From an uncultured Bacteroidota bacterium (GTDB taxonomy: Bacteria > Bacteroidota > Bacteroidia > Chitinophagales > LD1): a stretch of 64,000 nt of DNA. The notes under the pieces are model-generated. The model was not told the origin of the DNA. It searched no databases and was given only the letters and a program-made list of their open reading frames with translations. Below, in pieces: positions 14,087-18,865 of the stretch. The stretch spans positions 1 to 64,000 of the forward strand of contig CAIXGR010000025.1 in the NCBI GenBank assembly GCA_903919075.1, read 5' to 3'. The position numbers were made by a program, and so were the translations under genes. Within the stretch, counting starts at the first letter, position 1. Each line of letters begins with the position of its first letter.

Positions 14087-14422
14087 TTATCCGGTCCGGC
14101 CGATATTATCAAATCTCTTTTCGTCAATTAATTCTTGCTGTGCCTTTAAAGTTTCAGCTATTAAAACATAATTAGGTATATCCAATTCTGTTTTAAACAT
14201 GTCAAGCGCATAAAAAAAAGCAGTATTAAGGCTATATATATCTTCACTCGTCAGGCGTTTATCTCTGGCAATTTCTATCAGCCATTGATAAAGAATAGCG
14301 CGCTTATTTACACCGGTATGCACCAAGGTATGCAGCGGTATAGAATATTTCACGTCAGCTCTGCCCTTCCAATCAATACCATATGGGCTAACACTCCAAT
14401 TGTTGAATCTTATTAGTTCCAT
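14087..14422 (-). CDS. Conserved-looking hypothetical protein
   Basis: A 111-residue soluble protein, starting at ATG 14422 rather than the TTG two codons upstream. It opens MELIRFNNWSVSPYGIDW, rich in aromatic residues, then a predominantly helical middle (RAILYQWLIEIARDKRLTSEDIYSLNTAFFYALDM) and an amphipathic C-terminal helix. No signal peptide, membrane helix or known motif was found. Its compositional complexity argues for a real gene. The family is not recognised. Confidence 0.6.
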   Translation of the reverse strand: MELIRFNNWSVSPYGIDWKGRADVKYSIPLHTLVHTGVNKRAILYQWLIEIARDKRLTSEDIYSLNTAFFYALDMFKTELDIPNYVLIAETLKAQQELIDEKRFDNIGRTG

Positions 14423-14518
14423 ATACAAGAATTTTACATTACAAACTTGGTCATATTAGTAAGTAAAAACAATAGGGAGGTCCACAAAAATGAATGCGGA
14501 ATTATACAATTTTTATTG

Positions 14519-14550
14519 CGGGTTTCCGAAAAATGAATTTCGGAAACCCG
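14519..14550. repeat. Perfect 13-bp inverted repeat upstream of the small-protein gene
   Basis: CGGGTTTCCGAAA (14519-14531) and TTTCGGAAACCCG (14538-14550) form a perfect stem with a six-base AT-rich loop, in the divergent gap between 14422 and 14691. Neither side has a run of T, so it is a poor intrinsic terminator. It could be an operator, an mRNA leader structure for the gene at 14691, or a mobile palindrome remnant. Confidence 0.5.
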
Positions 14551-14690
14551 TAGTTTAAATGTTGAAAACCACTTGTTAATACATTAAAGTATTTTGTAGT
14601 TTTATAACTTTCGAAAAAAAAGATTTGTACGTAGCGACCCGTATCATATCTTTTTTCCACAAATATTTAACAACTAAAAAAACCAAACTT

Positions 14691-15011
14691 ATGCCAACAA
14701 CAACATTTAATGGAAGCGAAGGATCTTACATTACTCTTACTGCCGGCACTACATTAACAACCGCATTTCGCACAGCTTTCTCAACTCAACCCCAAGGATT
14801 TTTTTTCGGTTCCGATAAGCTTAATCAGGTACTGGGCCAAAGAGATTGTGTAGGTATCAGAGCATACTTTGGCACAGATGCCAACGGAAAATTAACATTG
14901 GTTTTAGCTGGTGCCAAAGCAAATACTGATGATATGCTTTCAAGTTATATTTTGGATGGCGGTATAGCATGCCCCTCAACCTGCGGTGCAAGCAATGGCC
15001 TAAACTCATAA
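14691..15011 (+). CDS. Small soluble protein with C-terminal Cys motif, function unknown; first gene of a putative signalling cluster
   Basis: The open frame begins at a TTG (14625), but ATG 14691 gives the convincing 106-residue product. It starts PTTTFNGSEGSYITLTAG and has a mixed core with a single C53 (RDCVGIRAYFG, then LTLVLAGAKANTDDM). It ends GGIACPSTCGASNGLNS with C94 and C98. No signal peptide or membrane helix is seen, so it should be cytoplasmic or exported by an unusual route. My recollection is that similar small proteins with a CP-x-x-C-x-x-x-N-x-L-N tail recur in Bacteroidota without assigned function. A strong terminator follows, so this gene can be expressed apart from the membrane protein and kinase downstream. 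Confidence 0.7.
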   Translation: MPTTTFNGSEGSYITLTAGTTLTTAFRTAFSTQPQGFFFGSDKLNQVLGQRDCVGIRAYFGTDANGKLTLVLAGAKANTDDMLSSYILDGGIACPSTCGASNGLNS

Positions 15012-15045
15012 CACTATTTTCATTTAAAATCGCATTAATCCCCCC

Positions 15046-15090
15046 AAATGCCCTTCTTTATATATGTATATAGAAGGGCATTTATTTTTT
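15046..15090 (+). terminator. Strong rho-independent terminator after the small-protein gene
   Basis: Two perfect 12-bp arms, AAATGCCCTTCT (15046-15057) and AGAAGGGCATTT (15072-15083), are followed by ATTTTTT (15084-15090). The AT-rich loop contains the ATG at 15064 that would otherwise be the first start of the next gene. The structure separates expression of the small protein from the membrane-protein/kinase pair. Confidence 0.8.
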
Positions 15091-15097
15091 AACTTTG
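15090..15097 (+). promoter_or_regulatory. Candidate -7 promoter box for the membrane-protein/kinase pair
   Basis: TAACTTTG matches TAnnTTTG and directly follows the terminator T-tract, nine bases before the TTG codon at 15106. If active, it would give a leaderless or nearly leaderless transcript for the membrane protein. No good -33 TTG is visible within the terminator stem. Confidence 0.35.
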
Positions 15098-15105
15098 CTT
15101 GTATC

Positions 15106-15747
15106 TTGAATATTAATCTAATAGTAGCTTACATATCTTCTTTCTCAGTTCTTTTGCCATTCATAATTTTGTTGGCAAACTATAAAGCCTTTTGGAGATA
15201 TAACCACTGGCTTTCGCTCTTTATTATAAATAATTTTATTAGTGAGGCCGTAACCGGAACATTGGCAGTATATAAAATATATAATATGCTTGCACTGGAT
15301 TTATTTTCTATTGTCGAGGCTTTCTTTATAATACTTCTTTACTATAAATCTTATAAATCTAAAGCCCTTAAAAAATTTATACTATGGCTACTGCCTTTTT
15401 ATATTACCGGGCAAATCCTGATTTATTTGAATTTTGATCGCAACAGCCAATTTAATGGCTATACTTATGCTTTTCACAGTGCGCTTATTCTAATTCCCAT
15501 CATTCTGTATTTTTGGGAAAAAGTGAATTTGTTAGAAGATGTTTATATTACTAAAAATCCAATGTTTTGGGTTAGCGCCGGCTTTCTCCCATTTTATAGT
15601 GTTAGCATACTGCATTATAGCTTAATTAATTACTTGTTTTATCATTATACCCACTTATTAGGAGTCTTAGGATTAATACACTCCATCATGCTTATTATTA
15701 TGGATATTCTTTTATCAAAAGGATTATGGCTGATACCGGAGGAATAA
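15106..15747 (+). CDS. Seven-helix integral membrane protein, putative sensor or partner of the adjacent histidine kinase
   Basis: The frame opens at ATG 15064, but that codon lies inside the upstream terminator hairpin. TTG 15106, just after a TAnnTTTG box, is more plausible and gives 213 residues beginning NINLIVAYISS. About seven hydrophobic segments are seen: LIVAYISSFSVLLPFIILL, WLSLFIINNFISEAV, LDLFSIVEAFFIILLYY, FILWLLPFYITGQILIYL, ALILIPIILYF, MFWVSAGFLPFYSVSIL and LGVLGLIHSIMLIIMDILL. No enzyme motif is present. Its last 22 bases overlap the kinase gene, implying translational coupling and a shared role, perhaps as the input module of the kinase. Confidence 0.75.
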   Translation: MNINLIVAYISSFSVLLPFIILLANYKAFWRYNHWLSLFIINNFISEAVTGTLAVYKIYNMLALDLFSIVEAFFIILLYYKSYKSKALKKFILWLLPFYITGQILIYLNFDRNSQFNGYTYAFHSALILIPIILYFWEKVNLLEDVYITKNPMFWVSAGFLPFYSVSILHYSLINYLFYHYTHLLGVLGLIHSIMLIIMDILLSKGLWLIPEE

Positions 15748-16517
15748 ATTTTTTGGCGGCTTTTATGCTTGGTACCGTTGCTTTATTAGTAATGGCTATT
15801 GGTATAATATCATTTGTGCTTGTTTACCAGCGCAGGGTTATTACCCATCAACTGGAAATACAGAAAAAAGATGAAGAAATGCAACGTGAAATGCTTCGCG
15901 CAACCATCCAATCACAGGAGGAAGAACAACGCAGAATTGCCCGCGATTTGCACGATGATCTTGGCCCCATGCTTAGTGCTATAAAATTAAAAACCGGGCA
16001 GATTAAGAAAAAGCTGGAGGCAAGCAACATGAATGTAGCCGATGCTGACGAATCGCAAGAGATGATTGATACTACTATTACACAGGTGCGAGGTATCTCT
16101 CACAGATTGTTTCCCCCGGTGCTTGAATATAATGGCCTTGCAGATACCATTGAAGATATGTGCGACAAAATAAACAGCGATAAATTGAATATTGCATTTA
16201 CTAAACCGGAAGAATACAACCGCATTAGTAACGAAAAAGAGTTGGCTTTATACCGGGTGGGAATGGAGTTATTGAACAATATTATAAGGCACAGTCAGGC
16301 CACACAAGCAGCAATAAGCCTTACACAAAAAAACAACAACAGCATCGAAATTTTAGTGTCAGATAATGGCAAAGGGTTCGACACTAAAAACATAAACGAA
16401 AAGGCAGGCCTGGGTTTAAAAAGCATTTTAAGCCGTATAGCCGCTATTAAAGGGCATATTAAATTCGAAAGCTCACCGGGCAACACGCTGGTAACAATAA
16501 ATGTAGATGGCAACTAA
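15726..16517 (+). CDS. Membrane sensor histidine kinase, HisKA_3 (NarL/LuxR-partner) type
   Basis: A 263-residue kinase. One transmembrane helix (about 8-35, AAFMLGTVALLVMAIGIISF) is followed by a coiled coil (about 40-70). The dimerisation/phosphoacceptor motif is RDLHDDLGPMLSAIK with H76. The HATPase_c domain has ELLNNIIRHSQA (N box), VSDNGKGFDTKN (G1) and GLGLKSILSRI (G2). There is almost no extracytoplasmic part, so the overlapping seven-helix protein may supply the input. No response regulator lies nearby; the partner should be a LuxR-type regulator elsewhere. It overlaps the upstream gene by 22 bases. Confidence 0.92.
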   Translation: MADTGGINFLAAFMLGTVALLVMAIGIISFVLVYQRRVITHQLEIQKKDEEMQREMLRATIQSQEEEQRRIARDLHDDLGPMLSAIKLKTGQIKKKLEASNMNVADADESQEMIDTTITQVRGISHRLFPPVLEYNGLADTIEDMCDKINSDKLNIAFTKPEEYNRISNEKELALYRVGMELLNNIIRHSQATQAAISLTQKNNNSIEILVSDNGKGFDTKNINEKAGLGLKSILSRIAAIKGHIKFESSPGNTLVTINVDGN

Positions 16518-16654: not shown

Positions 16655-18865
16655 ATGAGTAACACCATAAAAAAAATATTTCCTGTTACAGGAATGACCT
16701 GCGCTTCATGTGCTGCAAGTGTTGAGAGCACGTTGGCATACCAAAAAGGGGTTTTAAAATCAGCAGTAAATTTTGCTGATAACTCAGCCTTGGTAGAATA
16801 TGATGAAGCGTTAACCAAGCCGGCCGAGTTAAAAAAAGCCGTGCAATCAACAGGCTATGATATTGATATATCAGAAAACAAATCTGCCGAAGAAGCTGAA
16901 GCAGAGAAAAAGAAATCGTTCAAAAAATCGCGCACAAATGCAGTGATGGCTTTCACATTTGCTATACCTGTATTTGTTTTAGGTATGTTTTTCTCACATT
17001 TTGAAGCCGGCAGGTTGGTTTCACTTATTTTATCAGCCATTGTTGTTTTCTATTTCGGCCGCCAATTTTTTATTCATTCGTTTAAGCTTTTAACCCATTT
17101 TAAAGCCAATATGGATACGCTGGTGGCACTGAGTATAGGTGTTTCGTATTTCTTCAGCGCATTCAATACTATCTTTCCTCAAGTTCTCTCATCGCATGGA
17201 CTAAGCCCTGATGTATATTTCGAAAGTGCCGCCATAATAACTGCATTTATTTTGCTTGGTCGTTTTTTTGAAGAGAAAGCAAAAGCCGGTACTTCGGAAG
17301 CGATTAAAAACCTGATAGGCCTGCAAGCTAAAACCGTAAAGGCTATAAGAAACAACACCGAGCAGGAAATTAGAATTGAAGACGTTTTGCGCAGCGAAAT
17401 AATCATTATCCGCCCGGGAGAAAAAATTCCGGTAGACGGTGCGGTAATTTCAGGCAACTCATTTATTGACGAAAGTATGATAAGCGGGGAATCGCTACCG
17501 GTTGAAAAATCAATTGCCTCAAAAGTATTCTCAGGAACTATTAACCAAAAAGGCAGCCTTACCATAAAAGCCGAAAAAATCGGAAAGGATACTTTGTTAG
17601 CACAAATTATTAAAACAGTACGGGAAGCGCAAGGCAGTAAAGCACCAGTACAAAAACTGGTAGATAAAATTGCTGCTGTATTTGTACCGGTAGTGTTGCT
17701 GATAGCAGTGGCGACTTTTATTTTATGGGTAAGTATTGGTGGCAAGAATTATTTAGCACAAGGATTAATTTCATCCTTAAGTGTTTTAGTAATTGCCTGC
17801 CCCTGTGCACTGGGCCTCGCAACACCCACCGCTATAATGGTTGGTGTAGGCAAAGCAGCTGAAAACGGAATTTTAATTCGTAATGCCGAAGTTTTTGAAA
17901 ACACTAAAAACATTAACACCATAGTGCTTGATAAAACCGGCACTATTACAAAAGGTAAACCCGAAGTAACTGATATAATTTGGCTGGCCGATAATAGTTC
18001 GAAAAATTATGCGCCAGTTCTTTCCGTTATTGAAAGCAAATCAGAACACCCCTTAGCAGATGCGGTAGTAAAATATTTAGCAGTAAAAGAAAACCCTATT
18101 GATATCAAGCAGTTTGATGCCATGCCGGGTAAAGGTGTTAAAGCCGTAACCGCAGCGGGCACTTTTTATATAGGCAACGAAAAGCTAATGAGCGACAAGC
18201 TGATACTAATTTTTCCGGAGATAGAAAAACGGGCTGTTGCTTTAAAGAATGAAGCAAAAACCGTAATTTATTTTAGTAACGAAAGTGATTTACTGGCTGT
18301 AATTGCACTGGCTGATGAATTAAAAGATACATCGGCAGATGCCATTAGAGAATTGAAAAAAAAGTATGAAGTAATTATGCTTACCGGCGATAATATTTCA
18401 ACCGCAAAAGCCATAGCCGCAAAAGCCGGAATAGAAAATTTTAAAGCACAGGCACTACCTACCGATAAAGCAAAATTTATTTCAGAATTAAAAGCCCAAG
18501 GCAAAAAAACAGCCATGGTTGGTGATGGCATTAACGATAGCGAAGCGCTAGCAGTTGCTGATATAAGCATGGCCATGGGCAAAGGAACCGATATTGCCAT
18601 GAACGTTGCAGATATAACCCTAATGCGCTCTGATTTAAAATCCATTCTTCAATCCATTCATCTATCGCAAAAAATTGTGTCTACCATCAGGCAAAATCTT
18701 TTCTGGGCGTTTGTGTACAACCTGGTGGGTATTCCAATTGCGGCAGGTGTGCTATATCCATTTACCGGCTACCAACTTAGCCCTATGATTGCCGGTGCGG
18801 CAATGGCTTTAAGCTCCATTTCAGTGGTGGGCAATAGCCTGCTTCTTAAATCGAAATCTGTGTGA
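16655..18865 (+). CDS. copA: Copper-exporting P1B-type ATPase
   Basis: This inner-membrane pump removes cytoplasmic Cu(I). The 736-residue protein has one N-terminal heavy-metal-associated domain with GMTCASCA (C16, C19). Membrane helices, the actuator motif SGES and the channel motif CPC (C382-P-C384) follow. The phosphorylation motif is DKTGT (D426), with SEHPLADA of the nucleotide-binding domain, MLTGD and GDGINDSEALAVAD in the hinge. The single HMA, CPC and HP-locus pattern fits CopA rather than a Zn/Cd pump. No CopZ or copper regulator is adjacent. Confidence 0.95.
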   Translation: MSNTIKKIFPVTGMTCASCAASVESTLAYQKGVLKSAVNFADNSALVEYDEALTKPAELKKAVQSTGYDIDISENKSAEEAEAEKKKSFKKSRTNAVMAFTFAIPVFVLGMFFSHFEAGRLVSLILSAIVVFYFGRQFFIHSFKLLTHFKANMDTLVALSIGVSYFFSAFNTIFPQVLSSHGLSPDVYFESAAIITAFILLGRFFEEKAKAGTSEAIKNLIGLQAKTVKAIRNNTEQEIRIEDVLRSEIIIIRPGEKIPVDGAVISGNSFIDESMISGESLPVEKSIASKVFSGTINQKGSLTIKAEKIGKDTLLAQIIKTVREAQGSKAPVQKLVDKIAAVFVPVVLLIAVATFILWVSIGGKNYLAQGLISSLSVLVIACPCALGLATPTAIMVGVGKAAENGILIRNAEVFENTKNINTIVLDKTGTITKGKPEVTDIIWLADNSSKNYAPVLSVIESKSEHPLADAVVKYLAVKENPIDIKQFDAMPGKGVKAVTAAGTFYIGNEKLMSDKLILIFPEIEKRAVALKNEAKTVIYFSNESDLLAVIALADELKDTSADAIRELKKKYEVIMLTGDNISTAKAIAAKAGIENFKAQALPTDKAKFISELKAQGKKTAMVGDGINDSEALAVADISMAMGKGTDIAMNVADITLMRSDLKSILQSIHLSQKIVSTIRQNLFWAFVYNLVGIPIAAGVLYPFTGYQLSPMIAGAAMALSSISVVGNSLLLKSKSV

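Follow-up and report, generated by a model that had tools for sequence, protein, structure and literature searches.

A small alpha/beta protein, a seven-helix membrane protein and a sensorless histidine kinase are encoded as a conserved unit across Bacteroidota

In a 64,000-nucleotide stretch of DNA from an uncultured Bacteroidota bacterium (GenBank assembly GCA_903919075.1, contig CAIXGR010000025.1, positions 1 to 64,000; hereafter the window), genes for a small protein without a known domain, a seven-helix membrane protein (7TM) and a short histidine kinase follow one another on the forward strand. We asked whether these three genes are a functional unit, as a preliminary description of the locus had proposed, and how a signal might reach a kinase that has no sensor domain of its own. 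The features concerned are as follows.

14691..15011 (+): gene for a small alpha/beta protein, 106 aa, leaderless, of an uncatalogued family (R57xY59, D81, C94-P-x-x-C98)
15046..15091 (+): terminator-like hairpin with T-rich tail in the spacer that separates the small gene from the 7TM gene, with the ATG of a 227-aa frame in its loop (by folding, z -5.6)
15106..15747 (+): gene for the 7TM, about 213 aa, of an uncatalogued family, N-out/C-in (TTG start inferred by homology)
15726..16517 (+): gene for a short histidine kinase, 263 aa, with one TM helix, no sensor domain, and HisKA_3 and HATPase_c domains
Contig C90:48936-49598 (= L090:3937-4599), beyond the window: likely response regulator of the window kinase

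Re-analysis of the locus confirmed the 106-residue protein with C53, C94 and C98 and the tail CPSTCGASNGLNS at 14691-15011 (+), as well as the 22 bases (15726-15747) that the 7TM frame shares with the kinase gene. That the small protein has no export signal is borne out by homologues whose start is fixed by an upstream stop or by almost no upstream frame, and the claim that it has no known domain agrees with our searches, which gave no Pfam match up to an E of 1 and nothing of note in NCBIfam. The left end proposed earlier, 14519, lies about 170 bases 5' of the first gene. The seven-helix protein stood as described; its 227-aa frame is probably over-long and its start TTG 15106, because ATG 15064, from which that frame was read, sits in the loop of the hairpin at 15046-15083 and because the homologues in loci L010, L012 and L014 likewise begin at TTG. 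Upstream of the small gene, a divergent 113-aa frame with a TTG start (14087-14428, -) has no significant Pfam or NCBIfam match, and an inverted repeat (GGGTTTCCGAAA...TTTCGGAAACCC, 14518-14552) lies between the two. No Rfam family was found around the locus, and sigma-70 and Bacteroidota (TTTG/TAnnTTTG) promoter patterns occurred there at chance level only.

The grouping of the three genes is conserved. Relatives of the small protein at 34-48% identity were present in 6 of 60 related genomes, with a seventh, weak match (E 2.5e-4), and in all six the order small gene, 7TM gene, kinase gene was kept, so the grouping reflects more than chance. Among 395 sampled Bacteroidota genomes, a deeper profile found the small domain in 51 (the first profile, in 33) and a 7TM profile (E 1e-4) found the 7TM in 79. 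At 46 readable loci anchored on the small gene, the 7TM gene was directly downstream in every case and a kinase then followed in 45, 42 of them HisKA_3-like by profile; homologues of the small protein scattered without such linkage, the pattern that the preliminary description had named as speaking against its reading, were not seen. A NarL-type (receiver-GerE) regulator adjoined 38 of the 46 loci. No response regulator adjoins the three window genes, as already noted, yet this is the exceptional arrangement. We conclude that the small protein, the 7TM and the sensorless kinase are encoded as a conserved unit across Bacteroidota, usually together with a NarL-type regulator, which supports the earlier view of a functional unit.

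Whole-genome profile matches gave the same picture: in 65 of 70 cases a 7TM match lay within 1.6 kb downstream of a small-domain match, and of the other five, two have a divergent 7TM, one lies at a contig end and two are second copies inside the same cassette. Conversely, 20 7TM loci had no match to the small profile; 15 of these have a gene of 102-290 aa immediately upstream, by eye several with R-x-Y or CPxxC and six whose N terminus is of lipoprotein or anchor type, and at about five no small protein is visible upstream, so that the 7TM may be able to work without one. The kinase is the more variable member. In L056 and L066 the small-7TM pair stands ahead of a PAS-containing kinase of another type, which suggests a constant module, the pair, with the kinase as an exchangeable output; in L067 no kinase adjoins the pair, and in L049 and L058 the pair is duplicated inside one cassette. 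The one stand-alone small-domain protein that we saw (338 aa; L016 in genome G045, 1559-2572, -) has one or two divergent domains (CPPFC, CPFWC) and neither 7TM nor kinase beside it. A contig scan with the single protein gave one match, which could not be placed (L087), a tblastn search of plasmids gave none, and no recurring flanking genes that would name a regulon were convincing across genera. We found no paper on the small protein or the cassette in the openly accessible literature, an absence that is not proof of novelty.

The small protein is predicted by AlphaFold2 to be a confidently folded domain (pLDDT 91.8) of two helices and an antiparallel sheet, for which solved structures offered no convincing match (best E 0.25 by Foldseek; by VIA-align, Z 3.1 at most, over 51 residues), and no Pfam family recurred among 32 homologues. 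GPCR, PAS and CopG identities were considered and are not claimed, the fold matches being weak. In 48 sequences R57 and Y59 were each retained 47 times, P95 46, C94 43, D81 42, C98 41 and C53 27 times. The suggestion that the protein is read out through its cysteine motif does not stand as a general rule, since CPxxC is wholly absent from several intact cassettes (e.g. L081 and L085, DGTRPSPPY/F) and R57, Y59 and P95 are better kept; judged by these sequences, a cysteine switch would not be essential across the family. The N termini of the same 48 proteins fall into 40 leaderless ones, the window protein included, five of Sec or anchor type and three with a lipobox, with a gap in hydrophobicity between leaderless (at most 1.44) and leader-bearing forms (at least 2.08). 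Leaderless and lipoprotein forms thus seem to face each other across the membrane, and one common mechanism must cover both. Two cassettes, L085 (3579-6318) and L119 (2057-4808), encode in order a leaderless small protein, a 7TM, a lipoprotein that contains two small-like domains, a kinase and a regulator, and so apparently place the domain on both membrane sides.

The 7TM belongs to no catalogued family that we could detect: the window protein had no Pfam match, no Pfam family recurred among 30 members at E 0.1, a seven-sequence profile had no sequence match in the PDB, and these searches likewise revealed no sequence homology to GPCRs or rhodopsins. The AlphaFold2 model is confident (pLDDT 94.8, pTM 0.90), and mean K+R counts of the loops over the 30 members (2.6, 1.9, 1.8 and 2.2 on one side vs 0.4, 0.7, 0.5 and 0.8 on the other) indicate an N-out/C-in orientation. 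Its structural matches by VIA-align were GPCR-like folds throughout, the best being LYCHOS (Z 13.7, rmsd 4.4, 209 residues aligned), from a candidate set that shares the bias of the PDB towards GPCRs, and with Z values of a kind that can reflect a common helical arrangement; the best Foldseek E, 0.17, was not significant. The modelled fold therefore resembles that of GPCRs, without a claim of homology; the arrangement could be convergent. In six cassettes (L052, L061, L062, L086, L049 and L058) a single kinase is preceded by two or three consecutive 7TM genes or by small-7TM pairs in duplicate, and such multiplicity hints at homo- or hetero-oligomers of the 7TM.

The window kinase matched HisKA_3 at 45.3 bits (cut-off 24; E 1.3e-11) and HATPase_c at 42.6 bits (cut-off 26.4; E 9.6e-11) and has one N-terminal helix, which confirms the short one-helix HisKA_3 kinase described earlier; its matches to the UhpB (1e-30) and LiaS (1.4e-21) models were each under the cut-off of that model. 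The short, single-helix, sensorless form recurs among the cassette kinases, and this recurrence, together with the swap of kinase type behind the small-7TM pair, supports the proposal that the 7TM is the input module. A 'GT' motif in the kinase helix was rejected as a signature, being present in just 23 of the 64 kinases examined, with helices that were chosen automatically and in some cases misplaced. Regulators are absent beside the cassettes of the window and of two congeners (L010, L012). We detected a single HisKA_3 kinase in the window genome, that of the window, and two GerE proteins, one of them the receiver-GerE orphan on contig C90 and the other without a receiver of this type by eye; by this elimination, the window kinase would phosphorylate the C90 orphan. 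The best relatives of the orphan include cassette regulators of genomes G024 and G008 and orphans in G014 and G015, and these last two genomes also carry cassettes without a regulator. A TonB-dependent receptor and an HMA-domain protein lie 1.4-3.6 kb from the orphan (L090, 3937-8581).

To which of its neighbours is the small protein tied? Across 41 cassettes, tree distances correlated at 0.69 for kinase and regulator, 0.44 for 7TM and regulator, 0.31 for 7TM and kinase, and 0.30 for small protein and 7TM, a value reached in none of 999 permutations; the correlation of small protein and kinase (0.12; 116 of 999 permutations) was not significant. Such correlations are inflated by shared ancestry and the short small-protein alignments are noisy. 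With that caveat they link the small protein with the 7TM and not with the kinase, and they support the earlier proposal that it is a partner of the 7TM/kinase pair, favouring the 7TM. The junction between the two genes is also distinctive. The hairpin at 15046-15083 (-21.3 kcal/mol), whose stem has an internal mismatch, was not listed by a terminator scan. Among small-7TM spacers of at least 40 nt, hairpins of z < -2.5 occurred in 10 of 21, vs 1 of 18 and 1 of 16 at the two junctions further downstream (10/21 vs a pooled 2/34, Fisher p 0.0005, an approximate value because loci of one genus are not independent), and they vary in sequence between genera. The recurrence of terminator-like hairpins after the small gene suggests that the small protein is made in excess, in the manner of binding proteins encoded upstream of their membrane partners.

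The same hairpins, and the position of the small gene at the head of the operon, could also be read as marks of an output: the small protein would be an abundant effector, encoded by the gene that its own 7TM-kinase-regulator system chiefly controls, and the 7TM would sense alone, as the roughly five 7TM loci without a visible small gene would allow. We consider this unlikely, because the small protein and the 7TM are correlated in their trees, because their linkage survives both the swap (L056, L066) and the absence (L067) of the kinase, and because the pair is duplicated within single cassettes (L049, L058). Overproduction would also suit an exported or processed pheromone-like signal with CPxxCxxxNxLN as its active tail and the 7TM to receive or mature it, much as peptide quorum sensing works; a 7TM with a HisKA_3 kinase and a NarL-type regulator is reminiscent of quorum-sensing layouts, the tail is conserved and some homologues are exported. 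However, conservation extends over an entire folded domain with its internal R-x-Y, intact cassettes exist without the tail and the cysteines, the lipoprotein forms are anchored, and no signal or processing enzyme recurs near the cassettes, all of which makes a pheromone very unlikely.

A third reading starts from the cysteines, in which CPxxC and C53 would form a disulfide or metal site that the kinase reads, with copper handling as its task in the window genome. The retention of C94, C98 and C53 (43, 41 and 27 of 48) fits such a redox or metal sensor, as do the HMA protein and TonB receptor near the orphan regulator and the gene after the window kinase, at 16655, which by eye encodes a CopA-like P-type ATPase with an HMA domain. 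About 140 bases separate this ATPase gene from the kinase, however, no metal gene recurs beside other cassettes and several intact cassettes are devoid of the cysteines, so that this sensor appears quite unlikely. With the TonB receptor and HMA protein near the C90 regulator and the ATPase after the window kinase, a copper link in this genome is possible.

Is the cassette a variant of a known system? In UhpABC, which senses sugar phosphates, the accessory membrane protein UhpC acts with the HisKA_3 kinase UhpB and the NarL-type regulator UhpA; the cassette shares the kinase and regulator types and what is probably its sensor, a polytopic membrane protein encoded separately. UhpC, however, is related to 12-helix transporters and UhpB itself is polytopic, whereas the cassette has a seven-helix protein that belongs to no known family, a kinase with one helix and, as fourth part, a soluble protein. 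VraTSR likewise combines a sensorless HisKA_3 kinase, a NarL-type regulator and an accessory membrane protein. The same set is described for LiaFSR (PMC3543457); the cassette shares this layout with both, and neither is known to have a small alpha/beta partner. None of the 30 7TM members matched a LiaF- or UhpC-family Pfam model (E 0.1). By analogy, the cassette would work like UhpC-UhpB-UhpA or LiaF-LiaS-LiaR and yet belongs to neither, having other accessory families and a fourth part. In QseG-QseE (PMC12691602), a separate lipoprotein activates a histidine kinase by acting on the kinase itself; lipoprotein versions of the small protein might similarly activate kinase signalling, with the difference that the cassette has a 7TM in between. 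Seven helices also serve as sensor in BtsS, whose N terminus is periplasmic, in LytS-type 7TM kinases and in 7TMR-DISM receptors (PMC10653868, PMC6107284); the helices of BtsS belong to the kinase, whereas the cassette 7TM is a separate gene, and no 7TM member matched the 7TMR-DISM or LytS 5TMR family models among the 30. The likeness to GPCRs covers nearly the whole length of the 7TM model and the N-out/C-in orientation, and comes without sequence similarity. The novelty of the cassette is thus two uncatalogued families within the familiar scheme of a separate membrane protein and a HisKA_3 kinase.

The cassette probably serves as a receptor from which a signal passes through the membrane to the kinase. 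The specific reading that we favour, at somewhat better than even probability, is a phosphorelay of four parts: the small protein is the partner of the 7TM, the 7TM drives the sensorless kinase through the membrane, and the regulator follows. The small alpha/beta protein, present in excess of the membrane parts, would bind the 7TM as a soluble, ligand-binding or ligand-presenting partner and set its state; the 7TM, as membrane-embedded input module, would hold the kinase by contact with its single helix and change its autokinase or phosphatase state; and the kinase would phosphorylate the NarL-type regulator, by elimination the C90 orphan in the window genome. Since it has no leader, the window protein most likely acts on the cytoplasmic side, and in related cassettes the small protein may act from the periplasmic or lipid-anchored side. 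A bolder version, which we regard as doubtful, is a bacterial pair of protein ligand and GPCR-like receptor, in which a diffusible or lipid-anchored partner binds a separate GPCR-like 7TM that drives a histidine kinase through the membrane and in which the domain may serve both faces of the receptor, with a leaderless and a lipoprotein copy in one cassette (L085, L119).

With one HisKA_3 kinase and one candidate regulator in the window genome, the pathway would be easy to test. Two unrecognised protein families, spread across Bacteroidota, are here assigned to one signalling machine with testable roles, and, if true, a separate GPCR-shaped 7TM connected to kinases that can be exchanged would offer a new view of how sensorless kinases receive their input within the membrane.
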